Shown here: positions 3,218 to 59,605 of the stretch, in pieces
Layout of the letters: the number at the start of each line of letters is the position of its first letter
How positions within the stretch are numbered: the stretch's first letter is position 1
From: Flavihumibacter fluminis
Lineage (GTDB): Bacteria; Bacteroidota; Bacteroidia; Chitinophagales; Chitinophagaceae
DNA length: 64,000 nt
Direction: 5' to 3'
Assembly: GCF_021491375.1 (NCBI RefSeq)
Contig: NZ_JAKEVY010000005.1
Location: 62,001-126,000, forward strand
Position numbers and translations under genes: made by a program
The notes under the pieces: model-generated
What the model was told of the DNA's origin: nothing
What the model saw: the letters and a program-made list of their open reading frames with translations, nothing else
Database searches by the model: none

Positions 3218-4345
3218 ATGTTTGACGTCGTTCTATCATTAACCATTGCATTTACAATAACCTTTCTGGCTATTCCTGTAATTATTCGGGTAGCCGCAAT
3301 GAAGAAGATCTATGATATTCCGGATGAACGAAAAATTCACCAGGCAGCTATTCCAGCCCTGGGGGGATTGGGGATTTTTGCCGGATTTCTTTTCTCCGTT
3401 TTGCTGATCGCCAATTTCCAGGAAAGTAAAAATCTTCAGTTTTTCCTCGCAGCGGCAGTGGTAATCTTTTATATGGGATTGAAAGATGATATCATCATCA
3501 TTTCACCGGTAAAAAAATTCATTGGGCAGGTGCTGGCTGCTTTTATCATCATATACTATGGCGGACTTCAGATCCATAGTATGCAGGGTTTCCTGGGGGT
3601 GAACGAATTGCCGGAGTCATTCAGTCTGCTTTTTACCTATCTGACTGCAATCGTGGTGATGAACTCTTTCAACCTGATTGATGGGGTAGATGGACTGGCC
3701 GGCAGCCTGGGACTGTTATGCACTACAGTATTCGGAACCTATTTCGTGTTGACTGGACATTTACCGGAAGCCGTGATGGCATTCGCAATGGCAGGAGCAC
3801 TCCTGGCATTTCTGATATTCAATTTTCAGCCGGCCAGGATTTTTATGGGAGACACCGGATCACTGCTGATCGGATTGGTAAATGCAGTGCTGGTGGTGAA
3901 ATTTATTAATGTTGCTATGGAGCCGGGACAGGCATTTTCTGTACAAGCCGCTCCGGCATTGGGCTTTGGTATCCTGATGATACCACTGATGGATACGCTG
4001 CGTGTCTTTGGGATCCGGATCCTGCATCGTCGTTCTCCTTTTTCCCCAGACCGAAATCATATTCACCATTTATTGCTGGATTTGGGCCTGTCGCATCGTG
4101 CAATTGCTATTACCCTAACATCGCTTAATACAGTGGTAATCGCACTAGGGTTTTACCTGCAGGAACTGGGAACAACGGCATTGATGGCCATATTTTTTGG
4201 CATCTTCTTCAGTATTATTGGCCTGCTCTACATGGTGAGAAAACGCAGGCCGCAATTGTTTGTTGGTCCCACCAATGAGATCCTGAAACAATCCGGTGGC
4301 AAGCTGGTTCCGCTTTCGGAAAACCCCATGATGGAAAAGAAATAA
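3218..4345 (+). CDS. WecA/MraY-family undecaprenyl-phosphate sugar-1-phosphate transferase
   Basis: This 375-residue polytopic membrane enzyme transfers a sugar-1-phosphate, probably N-acetylhexosamine, from UDP-sugar to undecaprenyl phosphate, the first step of O-antigen or capsule synthesis. Family landmarks are the Mg-binding DD pair at D90-D91, the NSFNLIDGVDGLAG loop with N152, D155 and D158, FMGDTGS around D212, and the NHIHH carbohydrate-recognition motif at residues 280-284. About eleven hydrophobic segments span the protein. It resembles WecA/TagO more than MraY because it has the HIHH loop. It stands alone, 37 bases before frr. Confidence 0.9.
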   Translation: MFDVVLSLTIAFTITFLAIPVIIRVAAMKKIYDIPDERKIHQAAIPALGGLGIFAGFLFSVLLIANFQESKNLQFFLAAAVVIFYMGLKDDIIIISPVKKFIGQVLAAFIIIYYGGLQIHSMQGFLGVNELPESFSLLFTYLTAIVVMNSFNLIDGVDGLAGSLGLLCTTVFGTYFVLTGHLPEAVMAFAMAGALLAFLIFNFQPARIFMGDTGSLLIGLVNAVLVVKFINVAMEPGQAFSVQAAPALGFGILMIPLMDTLRVFGIRILHRRSPFSPDRNHIHHLLLDLGLSHRAIAITLTSLNTVVIALGFYLQELGTTALMAIFFGIFFSIIGLLYMVRKRRPQLFVGPTNEILKQSGGKLVPLSENPMMEKK

Positions 4346-4947: not shown

Positions 4948-5823
4948 TCATTTATTCCGGTTCACCAGGTAGACCCCGGCAAGAATGATCAACAGGCAGC
5001 CAACCTGCGCCAGGGTGATGGATTCTCCGAAAAGCAATCCCCACCCAATAGCCACAAAGGGAATACCATAAGTAACCAGTGAAGCGAACAAGGTTCCGGC
5101 CCTCTTCACCAGCATGTAAAAAATGATGGAGGCGAGGGCCGTTCCCATTACACCCAATACCACGGCCGAACCGGTAGCCATCCACCAGGTTCCACTATCG
5201 GGAATCCTATCCATTTCAAAATAACCGGTCTTCCATAGAACTGCCAGAGAAGGCGGGATCAGGCATGCAAAGGCAAAAGAGGCGATACTAACAGAACCAA
5301 TTCCTTTCAGGTACCGGGCTACCATATTCACATTGATACCATAACAAAGGGTGGCAAGAATAACCAGGGAAGAGTAGGAGAGATAACTCAGCTCCAGTTT
5401 TCCGCGAACCAGGAATAGCAGGCAGAGACCAATAAAACCAAGCACTACCCCTGCAATTTTAGCCGCGTTGATTTGCAATTGGAAAAACAGTGCACCAATG
5501 CTGATGGTAAACATGGGAGTCAGCGCATTCAGTATGCCTGCCAGTGAGCTATCGATTTTTGTTTCGGCAATGCAAAAGAAAAAAGCAGGAAAAAAACTGC
5601 CAAGGAATCCGGAAAGCACCACCAGTCCGATTTTTTCGCGAGGAATTTCACGAAACGATTTCAAAGCCATGGGAAGTAGTATCAGGCCACCACTCAGCAT
5701 TCGGATGGCGGCTACCTGGTAAGCTGAAAGTGCTTCCATGCCGGCTTTCATCAAAATAAAGGAGCTGCCCCAGATGAGTGCAAGCGCGGCAAAAAGAAAC
5801 CAGTTCAGCAATTTTGGAGACAT
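4948..5823 (-). CDS. EamA/DMT-family transporter
   Basis: The 291-residue protein has about ten hydrophobic segments in two tandem EamA repeats. The first opens with FAALALIWGSSFILMKAG and the second with the stretch LVILATLCYGINVNMVARY. The family exports amino acids, nucleosides or other small metabolites, and the substrate cannot be told from sequence. The ATG at 5823 is preceded by TATTTTTG only four bases away, so the transcript would have almost no leader. It is convergent with frr and divergent from mscL. Confidence 0.88.
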   Translation of the reverse strand: MSPKLLNWFLFAALALIWGSSFILMKAGMEALSAYQVAAIRMLSGGLILLPMALKSFREIPREKIGLVVLSGFLGSFFPAFFFCIAETKIDSSLAGILNALTPMFTISIGALFFQLQINAAKIAGVVLGFIGLCLLFLVRGKLELSYLSYSSLVILATLCYGINVNMVARYLKGIGSVSIASFAFACLIPPSLAVLWKTGYFEMDRIPDSGTWWMATGSAVVLGVMGTALASIIFYMLVKRAGTLFASLVTYGIPFVAIGWGLLFGESITLAQVGCLLIILAGVYLVNRNK

Positions 5824-5827
5824 CCGG

Positions 5828-5835
5828 CAAAAATA
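5828..5835 (-). promoter_or_regulatory. -7 box four bases from the EamA start
   Basis: The complement reads TATTTTTG, a full TAnnTTTG match, followed by four bases and then the ATG. If used, transcription would begin at or next to the start codon. Confidence 0.5.
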
Positions 5836-5881
5836 TTTATCTTAATCATATATTTAGACAGATAACCTAAAACCACTTATT

Positions 5882-6292
5882 ATGGGATTTTTCTCTGACT
5901 TCAAAGCATTCGCCACCAAAGGCAACCTGGTGGATGTTGCCATCGGTTTCCTGATGGGTACTGCTTTCACGAAATTGGTTGGCTCATTTACCGAGGGGTT
6001 AATTGCTCCCATCCTGGGGTTGATTACCGGCGGCAAAGACTTTTCAAAAATGGCGCTCACGATCAAAGAGGCACAACTGGATGCGAGTAATGCTGTGATT
6101 TCAGAAGCGATTACCTTTAAGTATGGAGCTTTTCTGACCGCCCTGCTCGATTTCATTATTGTAGCACTCGTTTGTTATGTTTTCATCAAAGCCATACTCC
6201 GCAGGCCGCCTGTACCGGAAGCACCGCCAGCCGGACCGACACCTACAGAATCCTTGCTGATGGAAATCCGCGATGAGCTGAAGAAGAAATAA
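5882..6292 (+). CDS. mscL: Large-conductance mechanosensitive channel
   Basis: MscL forms a pentameric inner-membrane pore that opens under hypo-osmotic tension. At 136 residues it has family length. The N-terminal amphipathic helix (DFKAFATKGNLVDVAIGFLMG) leads into TM1, followed by the periplasmic loop and TM2 near 78-103 (LLDFIIVALVCYVFIKAI). The proline-rich linker PPVPEAPPAGPTPTE precedes the cytoplasmic helix LLMEIRDELKKK. The gene is monocistronic, with an intrinsic terminator immediately downstream. Confidence 0.97.
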   Translation: MGFFSDFKAFATKGNLVDVAIGFLMGTAFTKLVGSFTEGLIAPILGLITGGKDFSKMALTIKEAQLDASNAVISEAITFKYGAFLTALLDFIIVALVCYVFIKAILRRPPVPEAPPAGPTPTESLLMEIRDELKKK

Positions 6293-6317
6293 AGATTCTT
6301 CTATATATATTTGCAAT

Positions 6318-6349
6318 GGCATTTTGACGTTCTCAAAATGCCTTTTTTT
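6318..6349 (+). terminator. Intrinsic terminator of mscL
   Basis: A perfect 10-bp stem (GGCATTTTGA with its complement at 6333-6342) encloses a 5-base loop and is followed by seven T residues. Confidence 0.9.
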
Positions 6350-6357
6350 ATAAACTA

Positions 6358-7410
6358 ATGAATGAGATAATGACTATGAAAAAAACCATGACCCTGTTTT
6401 GCGGATTTTTTTTGCTGGCCGGGTCGTTATTAGCCCAGGATGCCACTGTAAGCGGGCTCAAAAAAAGTGCGGAAAGAGCCACTTATGATGACACCACTTA
6501 TAAGTACAATGCAAAGGGCTGGCGCAAGGGCGGGTTGTTTAACCTGAATCTGGCCCAGGGTAGTGCCCGCAACTGGGCTGCAGGTGCAGAACGTTCTTCC
6601 ATTTCTGTAGCAGGATACTCTACACTTTTTGCCAATAAGAAAAAAGGAAAGTTCTTCTGGGATAACACCCTTGACCTTGGTTATGCAGTACAGCGTACCA
6701 GTTCGGTAGGAACCCGCAAGACCGATGATAAAATTGATTTTTACAGCAAAGCCGGACAAAAAATAAATGATAAATGGGCGCTGGTAGGAGTTTATAACCT
6801 GCGTACCCAGATGACCGATGGATATGATTATAATTACCTGTCAAAGGGAATTCGTCGCCGTATATCCGGACTCTTTGCTCCAGCCTATATGCTTATTTCT
6901 CCGGGTATAGAATGGAAGCCTACTTCTTATTTCAGTGTGATGTTGTCACCGATATCCGCACGCTGGGTAATTGTGAGTAATGATCCGTATAGCTATTATT
7001 ATGAAAACGGCCAGATTCCTTTACCGGATGGCGGCCAGGAAACCCCATTGGCGGCGCTGTATGGCGTAAACCCCAATAGGAAAGTGGCCATGGAAGCAGG
7101 TGCTTATTTGTCGGCCAACTTTTTTAAGGAAGTGCTTAAGAATGTATCGTATAAGTCCAGGCTGGATCTGTTCTCCAACTATGCAGGAAAGCGGGATCCG
7201 ATTACGGATGCAAAAATCGGTGCCCAACCCAAGAATATTGACGTCTTCTGGACCAATAGCATTGCGATGAAAGTGAATAAATTCCTGAGTGTAACATATA
7301 ATTTCGACCTGATATACGATGATGATGTAAAACAATTCGGGCCGAATGGAAATTCACCGGGTACCCAGGTAAGATCCCTGTTGGGTGTGGGTTTATCAGC
7401 AAAATTTTAA
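6358..7410 (+). CDS. DUF3078 outer-membrane-like protein
   Basis: The 350-residue product belongs to the Bacteroidota-specific DUF3078 family, judged from the WRKGGLFNLNLAQGSARNWAAG region near residue 55 and the length. A signal peptide (hydrophobic TLFCGFFLLAGSLLAQ) is cleaved near residue 27. The rest is rich in alternating aromatic strands and ends in LGVGLSAKF with a terminal Phe, as in outer-membrane beta-barrels. Function is unknown; a surface barrel is an inference. The in-frame ATG at 6376 is an alternative start with a cleaner signal peptide. A strong hairpin follows the gene. Confidence 0.85.
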   Translation: MNEIMTMKKTMTLFCGFFLLAGSLLAQDATVSGLKKSAERATYDDTTYKYNAKGWRKGGLFNLNLAQGSARNWAAGAERSSISVAGYSTLFANKKKGKFFWDNTLDLGYAVQRTSSVGTRKTDDKIDFYSKAGQKINDKWALVGVYNLRTQMTDGYDYNYLSKGIRRRISGLFAPAYMLISPGIEWKPTSYFSVMLSPISARWVIVSNDPYSYYYENGQIPLPDGGQETPLAALYGVNPNRKVAMEAGAYLSANFFKEVLKNVSYKSRLDLFSNYAGKRDPITDAKIGAQPKNIDVFWTNSIAMKVNKFLSVTYNFDLIYDDDVKQFGPNGNSPGTQVRSLLGVGLSAKF

Positions 7411-34189: not shown

Positions 34190-34342
34190 GATGTGAGATG
34201 TGAGACGTGAGATGTGAAATGGAGGAAAGGATAAAGGAGAAAAGGGAGAAGGAAACCTGGTTGCTTCCATCTCCCTTTTCTTCTTTTCTCCTTTTCTCCG
34301 TCTTCCATTCCTCCTCTTCCCTTCTCACGTCTCACTTCTTTC
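34190..34342. repeat. Inverted purine/pyrimidine repeat between rsgA and the PQQ-type dehydrogenase
   Basis: The left arm is a 7-bp array (GATGTGA units) plus a GGAGAAAAGGG tract. The right arm is its approximate complement, ending TCTCACGTCTCAC. The arms could fold into one large hairpin. The left arm follows the rsgA TAG; the right arm supplies the TGA stop of the gene on the other strand. Confidence 0.75.
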
Positions 34343-36885: not shown

Positions 36886-36949
36886 CTTCCCTGTCCCCCG
36901 TCTCCTTTCTCCCGTCTCACATCTGACGTCTCACATCTCACGTTTCACC
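36886..36949 (-). repeat. Heptamer repeat between divergent genes
   Basis: On the minus strand the region is GA-rich and 7-bp periodic (GTGAGATGTGAGACGTCAGA type), as in the stop-codon repeats. Here, unusually, it lies in front of two divergent genes, within the 5' region of the carbonic anhydrase gene and just before the aminotransferase -7 box. Confidence 0.7.
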
Positions 36950-55632: not shown

Positions 55633-55740
55633 GAAAGTGAAACGTGAGACGTGAGATGTGAGACGCATGGAAGCAGGAGTGTCCTTTGTCTCCTGTCCCC
55701 GTTGTCTCCCCTTTTCACGTCTCACGTCTGACGTCTCACT
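55633..55740. repeat. Inverted heptamer repeat between the metallo-hydrolase and flippase genes
   Basis: The left arm (GTGAAACGTGAGACGTGAGA-type) and right arm (ending TCACGTCTCACGTCTGACGTC-type) are approximate inverted copies around a C/T-rich centre. The left arm follows a TAG stop. The right arm encodes the last five residues (VRRQT) and the TGA of the flippase on the minus strand. Confidence 0.75.
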
Positions 55741-57300: not shown

Positions 57301-57948
57301 ATGAAACAGATCAGCTTCTTTGCAGGATTTATTTTACTCTCAACAATTGCAATGGCACAGGCAAAATCCGTTCAGGGAATTGCCGAGTATCAGAAATCAA
57401 AACTGCCTGCTGCAGTTATTGAATTGCCATATTCGCCATCTACAATTGAGGCGGCAGTAGATGAGCATTTCAGTAAAAAAGGACATAAGCCGGCCAATGC
57501 AAAAGATTATAAAGTGTTCAGGAATGTTCATTTGGGCGGTTCCGATCGTTACGATGCGTATCTCAAAGTGGAGCGCAAGAGTCGCAAGGAAAAAGAAGCT
57601 GCTGTGGTTTATATGGTGGTTACCAAACCGAATGAACTGATAACTGCCAAGGCGGGTTCTGATCAGGCGGGAGTAAGCGAAGCGCGCGACTTTCTGGATA
57701 AGTTGGTACCCGATGTGGAGGAATACCAATTGAAGCTGGATATCGCTGCACAGGAAGAAGTAATCCGTAAGGTGGAAAAGAAATACAATTCCTTACTGAA
57801 TGACTCAACTGATCTTTCCAAGAAAAAACTGCAACTGGAAGAAAAGATTACCGAGAACAGTCAATCCCTTCAAAGCCAGCAGGCCGAATTGGAAAAGGAG
57901 CGCCAGGCACTGGAGGCGATAAGGCAGAGGAAGAAGGGGGAGAAGTAG
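57301..57948 (+). CDS. Exported coiled-coil protein, unknown
   Basis: The 215-residue protein has a signal peptide (ISFFAGFILLSTIAMAQ), a compact alpha/beta domain at about 22-115 (VQGIAEYQKSKLPAAVIELPYSP-like start, then LKVERKSRKEKEAAVVYMVV) and a long coiled coil from about 140 to the end rich in K, E and Q. I do not recognise a family. The TAG stop is embedded in a 19-bp repeat whose inverted copy ends the next gene. Confidence 0.7.
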   Translation: MKQISFFAGFILLSTIAMAQAKSVQGIAEYQKSKLPAAVIELPYSPSTIEAAVDEHFSKKGHKPANAKDYKVFRNVHLGGSDRYDAYLKVERKSRKEKEAAVVYMVVTKPNELITAKAGSDQAGVSEARDFLDKLVPDVEEYQLKLDIAAQEEVIRKVEKKYNSLLNDSTDLSKKKLQLEEKITENSQSLQSQQAELEKERQALEAIRQRKKGEK

Positions 57949-58117
57949 TATGGAAGAGGAGACGAAGGAGAAGGGAGACAAAGGAGACAAAGGGAACAGG
58001 AGACGGGAAGCATGGAAGATGGAGGAAAGGAAGAAAGGACGAAGGAGGAAAGGAGAGGGGGGGTATCTGAATAGCGGTTCTGGGACGATGTTGGGTTAAT
58101 GGTGGGTCAAATGAAAG

Positions 58118-58157
58118 ACGTAGGATCACGTAGGATTGCGTAGGATTACATTGGATG
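58118..58157 (+). repeat. Four 10-bp tandem units
   Basis: Units acgtaggatc, acgtaggatt, gcgtaggatt and acattggatg run head to tail with a 10-base period. Confidence 0.75.
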
Positions 58158-58232
58158 AACAAAAAAAATTTGATCTGAAGAGAAGGCTGACCTGGACCTT
58201 GTGTTGCCCTGAAACTCCCGCTGCTACAGCAA

Positions 58233-58417
58233 TTGAGGGCTGCTGGTTTCCGATTGGGGAGCCATAAATAATTGGCTCATGAAAACTCCAGATTGGCTCA
58301 TAATGCTCCGAAATTGCCCCAAAAACTGCCCTGATTGGCTCACAACTACCCATAATTGGCTCACAAACACCCTTAATTGGCTCATAAATCAGCAAAATTG
58401 CCTCACCTTTAATTTGA
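58233..58417 (+). repeat. 21-bp tandem array of ATTGGCTCA
   Basis: ATTGGCTCA or a close variant begins at 58271, 58292, 58313, 58334, 58355, 58376 and 58397, always 21 bases apart, with weaker units at 58233 and 58254 and a slip of four bases before 58271. The rest of each unit is variable. The complement strand could encode an EPI-xxxx heptapeptide repeat, but the frame is short. Confidence 0.8.
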
Positions 58418-58515
58418 TTGCTTTCTTATCCAACACCGCTTCGAGTGCGGCTTCAAGAAATACTTTTTGAGCAAGAGAGTAAAGGCGACGCCTCGCCTAT
58501 CTATATTTAATTAAG

Positions 58516-58542
58516 ACCCGTGAATTTATTCGTGGGTTTTTT
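58516..58542 (+). terminator. Terminator-like hairpin in the repeat region
   Basis: ACCCGTGAA pairs with TTCGTGGGT (two G-U pairs) around TTTA and is followed by TTTTTTG. It could end a transcript that crosses the arrays on the plus strand. Confidence 0.55.
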
Positions 58543-58624
58543 GTTTCTTGTCTCCTTTGTTTCCTGGTCCATGCCGCCTCCTTCGTCTCCTGTCTCCTTT
58601 GTCTCCCTTGTCTCCTCTTCCATA

Positions 58625-59605
58625 CTACATCCCACCCAAACGCTCATCCGTCAATGTCTTCAAAAACTCTGTCAGCAACGAACGTTCCACCGAGCTAAGA
58701 GGTATCGTCTGATTGTAATGCTGGTATACATCTTCCAGGTTCCAGAAGCGACCATCGTGCATATAGGGGAAAGTGAGTGCTACATTACGCAGGCTCGGTA
58801 CTTTGAATTTGAGGGAATCGGCCTTACTACCGGTGATGCGCATGCGACCAACATCATTAAAAGCAGGATTCAGTGGTAGTCCGTTGCTCATGAATTCCAG
58901 GTTGGTGAACAGAGGTTCCACATGACAGCTATTGCATTTTTTCTCCAGGAAGATTTTGTAACCCGCTTCCTGGTTTACATCAAATTGCGCCTGTCCGCGT
59001 TTTACCTGGTCGTATTTGGAATTAGCCGATACCAATATCAGCATGTACTGCGATAAAGCTTTGGTCATATTTGCCGTGGTGATCTCCGGACTCCCAAACA
59101 CTTTTGCAAATTCTTTCTGATAATCCGCATCCGCATTCAGTTTATTCAACACATTTTCGATCGTCTCAGCCATTTCATTGGGTGCAGTTATCGGCGCAAG
59201 TGGCTGAAGATCCAGGTGCGTGATCCCTCCATCATGATGAAAATTACTATGCCAGGCAAGGTTGAAGAGTCCGGGTGCATTGCGCGTAGTAAACTGATCA
59301 TTGAAACCATGACTCAGATCGTGCTCAAATGTGGCAAATGCTGCAAAGGGCTGGTGACAGCTAACGCAGGGGAAGTTCCCATCTTTAGAGAGTCTTCCGT
59401 CAAAGAATAATTTTCTGCCAAGTGCTACTCCTTCTTTCGTAAGCGGGTTGGAACTGAAATCATATACAGGATCGGGCCATCCTGCCGGTTTTGGAAATTC
59501 GATGGATTGCAGGTTGCCGCCCGCATCGTTTTTAGTACAGCTGATGCCCCATTGCATCAGAGCAAATAGTAACAGGATCAGGGTGCTGTAATAAATCGAT
59601 TTCAT
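58625..59605 (-). CDS. MauG/CcpA-type di-heme peroxidase-like enzyme (MbnH-like partner)
   Basis: The 326-residue exported protein has a lipoprotein-like start (C23 in GISC) and two c-type heme sites, CVSCH (C80-H84) and CNSCH (C224-H228), with the MauG-type segment YMHDGRFWNLEDVYQHY near 281-297. It follows an MbnP gene with a 4-base ATGA overlap. In characterised pairs MbnH oxidises a tryptophan of MbnP to kynurenine for copper binding, so a copper-handling role is likely. It could instead be an ordinary cytochrome c peroxidase. Its TAG stop lies in the 19-bp inverted repeat. Confidence 0.88.
   Translation of the reverse strand: MKSIYYSTLILLLFALMQWGISCTKNDAGGNLQSIEFPKPAGWPDPVYDFSSNPLTKEGVALGRKLFFDGRLSKDGNFPCVSCHQPFAAFATFEHDLSHGFNDQFTTRNAPGLFNLAWHSNFHHDGGITHLDLQPLAPITAPNEMAETIENVLNKLNADADYQKEFAKVFGSPEITTANMTKALSQYMLILVSANSKYDQVKRGQAQFDVNQEAGYKIFLEKKCNSCHVEPLFTNLEFMSNGLPLNPAFNDVGRMRITGSKADSLKFKVPSLRNVALTFPYMHDGRFWNLEDVYQHYNQTIPLSSVERSLLTEFLKTLTDERLGGM

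Follow-up and report, generated by a model that had tools for sequence, protein, structure and literature searches.

The stretch of DNA between a 215-aa gene and a convergent MauG-like gene in Flavihumibacter fluminis raises the question of what a repeat-dense sequence between two gene ends represents. It lies in the window (the whole 64,000-nucleotide stretch of DNA that we analyzed, C37:62001-126000 of a draft genome in 41 contigs), and a sequence-only reading had described it as a noncoding element bounded by 19-bp inverted repeats, containing arrays that could bind protein or could encode a structured RNA. Our analyses partly support that interpretation, and point to the 21-bp array of the element as a probable row of binding sites for a winged-helix domain encoded elsewhere in the genome.

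Extent of the element in the window

The perfect 19-base inverted ends are present in the sequence as described, with GTAGTATGGAAGAGGAGAC at positions 57945-57963 and its exact reverse complement at positions 58610-58628, and each includes a TAG stop codon: the TAG at 57946-57948 ends the 215-aa gene on the + strand (a gene for which we found no NCBIfam match), and the complement of 58625-58627 is the stop codon (TAG) of the 326-aa gene on the - strand. The purine and pyrimidine inner arms and the two arrays are likewise where they were said to be (Table 1). The 684-bp region, used as a query, gave 96 matches in its own genome, mostly to the purine or pyrimidine ends alone, and much of its middle was matched at four further places (C11:1086640, C11:464729, C21:399680 and C21:191196). 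The same flanks enclose the same element in two sister species (locus L042 in genome G004 and locus L043 in genome G008), and the window flanks are 85-93% identical to those of L042 and L043 on both sides. Because the tracts differ between the sister species while the TGGG block, the 10-bp array and the core hold, we place the element proper at about 58071-58460, where it would consist of the TGGG block, the CGTAGGAT array, the core and the ATTGGCTCA units every 21 bp. The proposal that the 19-bp repeats bound the element did not survive this comparison: we rejected the arms as element ends, as they are copies of a high-copy purine tract that differ in the sister species, and the comparison of orthologues did not find them to be terminal inverted repeats belonging to the element, such as a MITE would have.

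Table 1 Features of the region between the two convergent genes (positions in the window; identities are for three species)
Feature	Positions	Strand	Remarks
215-aa flanking gene	57301..57948	+	TAG stop inside left 19-bp arm
Left purine tract	57949..58070	.	39/122 columns identical (gaps counted as differences); outside conserved element
TGGG block, conserved left limit of element	58071..58113	+	37/43 columns identical
10-bp array	58118..58156	+	four CGTAGGAT-type units at 58118, 58128, 58138, 58148; 30/43 columns identical (gaps counted as differences)
Gene-less inner core, about 110 bp	58157..58267	+	in place of the gene of R1-type loci; 83/112 columns identical (gaps counted as differences)
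21-bp array, putative winged-helix binding sites	58271..58405	+	ATTGGCTCA at 58271, 58292, 58334, 58355, 58376; weaker units ATTGCCCCA at 58313 and ATTGCCTCA at 58397
Conserved right flank of 21-bp array	58406..58460	+	36/55 columns identical, window orthologues only
Terminator-like stem with T tail	58513..58540	+	no counterpart in both sister species
Right pyrimidine tract, an inverted tract copy	58546..58628	.	includes right 19-bp arm; 28/83 columns identical (gaps counted as differences)
MauG-like di-heme gene, convergent, 326 aa	58625..59605	-	stop inside right 19-bp arm; NCBIfam scores below curated cut-offs

The high-copy purine tracts (TATGGAAGA..GGAGACAAAGGAGAC; in the window at 57949-58070 and 58546-58628, elsewhere L306-L325) are often found near genes. 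Among 20 copies, whose neighbors were taken from an open reading frame (ORF) rule rather than from annotation, 11 lie between tandem ORFs, five between convergent ORFs, two between divergent ORFs and two at an edge. Beside the tracts at two loci (C11a and C21a) different intergenic DNA is present in sister species, as if cargo had been exchanged there, and in the window the 3' end of the MauG-like gene (58625-58660) differs from its counterparts at L042 and L043 where the tract meets the gene, which suggests that the gene end may have been replaced in this lineage. The window also contains 7-bp tandem repeats at 34190-34221, 36908-36948, 55637-55665 and 55715-55739 (GTGAGAC, TCTCACG, GATGTGA and TCACGTC, respectively), and similar runs stand before the purine tracts at C11a and C21a.

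Terminator-like stems, at 58483-58498 and 58513-58540, do exist in the sequence, but in a number to be expected by chance (two found, 1.3 +/- 1.4 expected), and neither sister species has a counterpart of bases 58495-58538. It is the terminator-like stem at 58513-58540 that would favor reading the region as a structured or regulatory RNA or as a terminator region. We consider such a reading most improbable, given that this stem is missing from the sister species, that a covariance-model search gave no Rfam match for the window element, and that the consensus fold of 11 copies of the element received no covariation support (covariation term of -0.6 kcal/mol, with changes on both sides in 3 of 39 pairs).

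Gene-bearing and gene-less copies

The pattern ATTGGCTCAN{8,16}TTGGCTCA, which represents the 21-bp array, has 24 matches at eight loci in the genome that contains the window, whereas the reversed pattern, used as a control, has none there and none in all 59 genomes that we searched; the array is thus not a product of chance. Seven of the eight ATTGGCTCA loci are gene-less. The eighth (C21:100760-101511) carries, between two arrays, a gene (C21:100872-101447) for a 192-aa winged-helix protein that we refer to as R1. In particular, a CGTAGGAT-type array lies on the promoter side of the R1 gene, and a ATTGGCTCA array starts inside its last codons; a 10-bp array like that of the window is found directly upstream of the R1 gene and of its orthologues. 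In the window element the gene is missing, but both arrays recur with order and orientation unchanged. Its own lack of a convincing gene was borne out, in that we saw by eye no conserved protein common to the short open frames of the three window orthologues, and the core contained no remnant of the R1 gene at E<0.5.

Other genomes were searched in the same way, as the sequence-only reading had proposed. The strict pattern occurs in 9 of the 59 genomes, all nine of which also contain a full-length gene of the R1 family, and such a gene is present in eleven genomes altogether, with G009 and G011 being the two that lack the pattern. This count of co-occurrence includes each gene's own array, and therefore more telling are 26 gene-less loci, judged gene-less from the DNA between the arrays only, that are distributed over eight genomes of the genus (that of the window included), each of which holds a family gene with ATTGGCTCA units. 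Remnants of the gene are found between the arrays at 2 of the 26 loci, in G013 (E 2e-16) and in G007 (E 6e-6), and none at the other 24 at E<0.01. Three further matches to R1 at gene-less copies are weak (E 0.025, 0.069 and 0.21) and span only C-terminal R1 residues that are mostly encoded by R1's own array. Beside the ATTGGCTCA array, several of the gene-less copies (L010, L011, L013 and L049) have a AAGTGGGTACCAGACCTCTGGTACCCACTT-type hairpin.

Multiple gene-less copies of a gene-bearing unit could be explained by a MITE-like, non-autonomous mobile element, the arrays being recombinase-binding ends and the gene-less copies having arisen by internal deletion. The 26 loci in eight genomes and the two gene remnants would be in keeping with such an origin, as would the variable presence of the element at C11a, which in G004 is reduced to a 28-nt piece of the core without an array unit and is absent in G008, and at C21a, whose counterpart place holds other DNA in G004 and of which the left flank alone is found in G008. 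These losses also indicate that loss is tolerated, and that not every copy is essential. Against a mobile element, the gene-bearing relative encodes an N-terminal domain and a winged helix, with no match to a recombinase; no target-site duplication was noticed by eye at the two loci that we compared (C11a and C21a); and five of the genome's gene-less loci recur between the same flanks in sister species. Moreover, the neighborhood of the R1 locus is common to G000, G004 and G008 (with extra DNA alongside in G004), which gives no sign of a recent transposition of the gene. On balance, we think a MITE-like origin quite unlikely.

Far from occurring once and decaying freely without kept spacing, the array recurs at the eight ATTGGCTCA loci and holds its 21-bp period. 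Of the 44 steps from one intact unit to the next in 11 aligned gene-less copies, 41 measure 21 or 42 bp, and the remaining three measure 20, 20 and 41 bp. Nine orthologue pairs of gene-less loci have flanks that match on both sides, with main stretches of 83-94% identity. In the orthologue sets (two species for C32, three for the others), motif positions are identical at 402 of 416 and the spacers between them at 485 of 651, in a comparison that defines motif positions in the reference copy and skips gapped positions, so that whole lost units go uncounted. Excluding the R1 locus, the corresponding values at five gene-less loci are 329 of 336 for the motif (98%) and 400 of 549 for the spacers (73%), a difference suggesting that selection maintains the arrays even with no adjoining gene. 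In each of the five gene-less sets the 10-bp motif, too, is kept better than the spacers, although the numbers are small. For the window and its two orthologues, with gaps counted as differences, 41 of 56 motif columns and 40 of 82 spacer columns are identical, a weaker contrast than in the gap-skipping comparison. The loci are related to one another, and p-values for spacing and conservation thus overstate their independence. Together, spacing and conservation argue for the gene-less arrays being in use.

We also considered whether the gene-less loci are neutral debris, that is, decayed copies of R1-type genes at which the arrays can still be recognized. A graded series that leads from the intact gene through the remnants in G013 and G007 to gene-less loci is what decay would produce, and the array at C11a has indeed been lost in G004, but freely decaying DNA would not be expected to hold the 21-bp spacing or to keep motif above spacer positions within the same alignments. 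We judge this explanation very unlikely.

The winged-helix domain and the motif that accompanies it

The alignment of 19 full-length proteins of the R1 family, two of which are encoded in the genome of the window, reveals an N-terminal part of about 100 aa followed by a C-terminal winged helix. R1 matched no Pfam family above the cut-off, its N-terminal part giving only sub-threshold rows; we found no Fic domain in it, there being no Fic family among the Pfam rows up to E 1; and searches against PHROGs, NCBIfam and PADLOC gave weak matches only. The winged helix of R1 is homologous to a domain, with a VSKATATRDL-like region, of HATPase_c_4 proteins and of Fic/DUF4172 proteins, and profile comparison with hhalign gave probabilities of 99.7 and 99.3 for the two classes. 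ORFs of about 100-140 aa that are akin to the R1 N-terminal domain alone occur in many Chitinophagaceae genomes (for example L225-L244), and many of them have an in-frame stop.

In 17 of the 19 full-length family genes we found, by eye, units at or just past the stop codon. The motif varies by paralogue (ATTGGCTCA, AATTGAATCA, AATGGGCTCA, AATAGGCTCA, AATGGCCTCA and AATCGCCTCA), and despite this variation the units are mostly spaced 19-22 bp apart (17 of 19 genes, the two without a downstream array being left out). One locus (L125) has a single strict unit, the family gene of G028 has units upstream only, and in the 420 nt downstream of the full-length family gene of G009 we saw no unit.

The structure model of R1 (mean pLDDT 76.9, pTM 0.47) bears on whether the arrays might serve chromosome organization or the titration of R1, as centromere-like or sink arrays, and not local regulation. 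Direct arrays with helical spacing that are dispersed and conserved would suit such a role, and a Foldseek search with the model put AspA first, a centromere-binding protein of the winged-helix type, and ranked TubR lower. All of the Foldseek matches had E>0.001, those to AspA and TubR being weak (E 0.008 and 0.05, respectively), and when structures were realigned with the R1 model Fic proteins were best (8cil, Z 10.7; 7xux, Z 10.1). Furthermore, by the strict pattern, the one-contig genomes of the genus have no array (G006) or two array loci (G012). A role of the arrays in chromosome organization or titration therefore seems unlikely to us.

We searched contigs with the winged-helix peptide alone and kept 80 of at least 303 loci that encode a relative; the counts that follow are all for this kept set. 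Two or more copies of the half-site GGCTCA/TGAGCC are found within 120 nt past the domain at 41 of the 80 loci, and in 37 of 2979 other 120-nt windows that served as background, 28 of these 37 being near the start of a Fic-type gene. Architecture classes were assigned by tblastn to representatives, and Pfam confirmed the architecture in the ten proteins that we checked. Among HATPase_c_4-type loci two or more half-sites are located downstream in 33 of 37 and upstream in 3 of 35, among N-domain-type loci downstream in 5 of 6 and upstream in 2 of 6 (in these three and two upstream cases the reading frame was interrupted by a stop immediately ahead of the array), and among Fic-type loci downstream in 2 of 33 and upstream in 27 of 30. 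The domain end of one locus (L140) was moved back by hand, as its match ran into the array. Four loci were left unclassified, with one downstream and two upstream occurrences; one of these four is L139, the family gene of G009. Further GGCTCA clusters were seen 1.2-2.7 kb from winged-helix genes without a GGCTCA array at their own end (L139, about 5760-6360, in F. petaseus, and L144, about 3240-3480).

The arrangement of the sites differs between the architectures. At 24 of 30 Fic-type loci of the kept set the sites include TGAGCC and GGCTCA as an inverted pair, at a distance of 21-23 bp and most commonly 23. In 25 of 37 HATPase-type genes a unit is formed by the codons directly preceding the stop (for example ATTGGCTCA-TAA-TTGGCTCA), and the 88 spacings at HATPase-type loci comprise 29 of 9 bp, 48 of 11 bp, 8 of 19-20 bp and 3 of 22 bp. 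At four HATPase-type loci the array is in reverse orientation, an observation more in line with a site in double-stranded DNA than with an RNA or a protein-coding role, and one that tells further against a structured RNA. Arrays at HATPase-type loci are not confined to Bacteroidota, and also occur in records titled Fimbriimonadales, WOR-3, Elusimicrobia, Spirochaetes, Atribacteria, Chitinispirillales and Calidithermus. The 10-bp CGTAGGAT array is without GGCTCA.

Because the same motif accompanies the same domain in three architectures, ATTGGCTCA is most likely a site bound by the winged-helix domain of R1, Fic and HATPase_c_4 proteins. The earlier suggestion of protein-binding arrays with helical spacing is thereby well supported at the sequence level, by the association with the domain in three architectures, by the phased spacing and by the conservation of motif above spacer.

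A putative docking site and its relation to known systems

We consider it probable that the 21-bp array is a row of ATTGGCTCA sites for the winged-helix domain, and that the window element is a gene-less relative of the R1 unit that serves as a target in trans; the arrays in common, the association between domain and motif, the helical spacing and the conservation of the motif all speak for it. The cognate protein of the ATTGGCTCA arrays in this genome is likely R1. R1 would bind the units on one face of the helix, two helical turns apart and probably cooperatively, and at its own gene would thereby regulate itself. At gene-less copies, including that in the window, the array would be bound by R1 in trans, and would most likely gate or insulate transcription near the ends of the flanking genes (here the 215-aa and MauG-like genes). 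The effect on the convergent neighbors is the weakest step of this proposal, local gating or insulation being the effect we favor. More tentatively, and with somewhat less than even confidence, we raise the possibility that the winged helix is a portable module that has spread across phyla together with a 3' array of its sites, the first of them often being the last codons themselves, and that in Flavihumibacter the arrays escaped the gene to form a small, selection-maintained docking network on the chromosome, used in trans by one or a few R1-type proteins.

Autoregulating winged-helix proteins with repeated sites are already known. In the literature searched we did not find arrays lying across the stop codon of the very gene that encodes their domain, or dispersed gene-less arrays under constraint, and among titles and abstracts we recognized no paper that describes GGCTCA arrays at these genes. 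The unusual layout, in which sites overlap the stop codon and gene-less arrays are kept across species, comes with a probable DNA site for a winged-helix domain common to Fic enzymes and AlbA_2/HATPase_c_4 proteins; the literature searched holds little on DNA recognition by the R1-type domain.

The closest parallel to autoregulation at the R1 gene is CccR, a Fic protein with a C-terminal helix-turn-helix that binds 10-bp inverted repeats in its own promoter and represses itself, as shown by footprinting, EMSA and ITC (PMC9755527). CccR resembles the R1 system in having a Fic-linked DNA-binding domain and repeated sites at its own gene, but uses one inverted-repeat pair at the promoter, and the sections of that report drawn on here describe neither gene-end nor gene-less arrays. 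Its footprinted site, AGATAATCAT-N26-ATGATAATCT (PMC9755527), is unlike the GGCTCA sites in sequence, and CbFic2 has nanomolar affinity for random DNA (PMC10628234); both points count against our best explanation. Genes of the DUF4172-Fic-wHTH type, as represented by SoFic (an entry in the PADLOC defense library) and CbFic2, encode the same winged-helix domain as R1 and have two or more GGCTCA half-sites near their start at 27 of 30 loci of the kept set (80 of at least 303), whereas R1 is without a Fic domain and its gene has, at the 3' end, sites that are direct repeats spaced about 21 bp apart.

AspA and TubR, which bind repeated sites, share the winged-helix fold with R1, although the structural match is weak. 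MITEs and REP-type intergenic repeats are short, multi-copy, intergenic and gene-less relatives of a gene-bearing unit, and the window element is like them in each of these respects; unlike them, it has no recombinase match and no terminal repeats of its own, and its motifs are kept above its spacers. Finally, the SLFN_AlbA_2 / HATPase_c_4 / wHTH proteins, which we take to be COG2865-like, have the same winged-helix domain as R1 and direct arrays at the stop codon, and differ from it in their N-terminal part and in arrays that are mostly tighter (9 and 11 bp).
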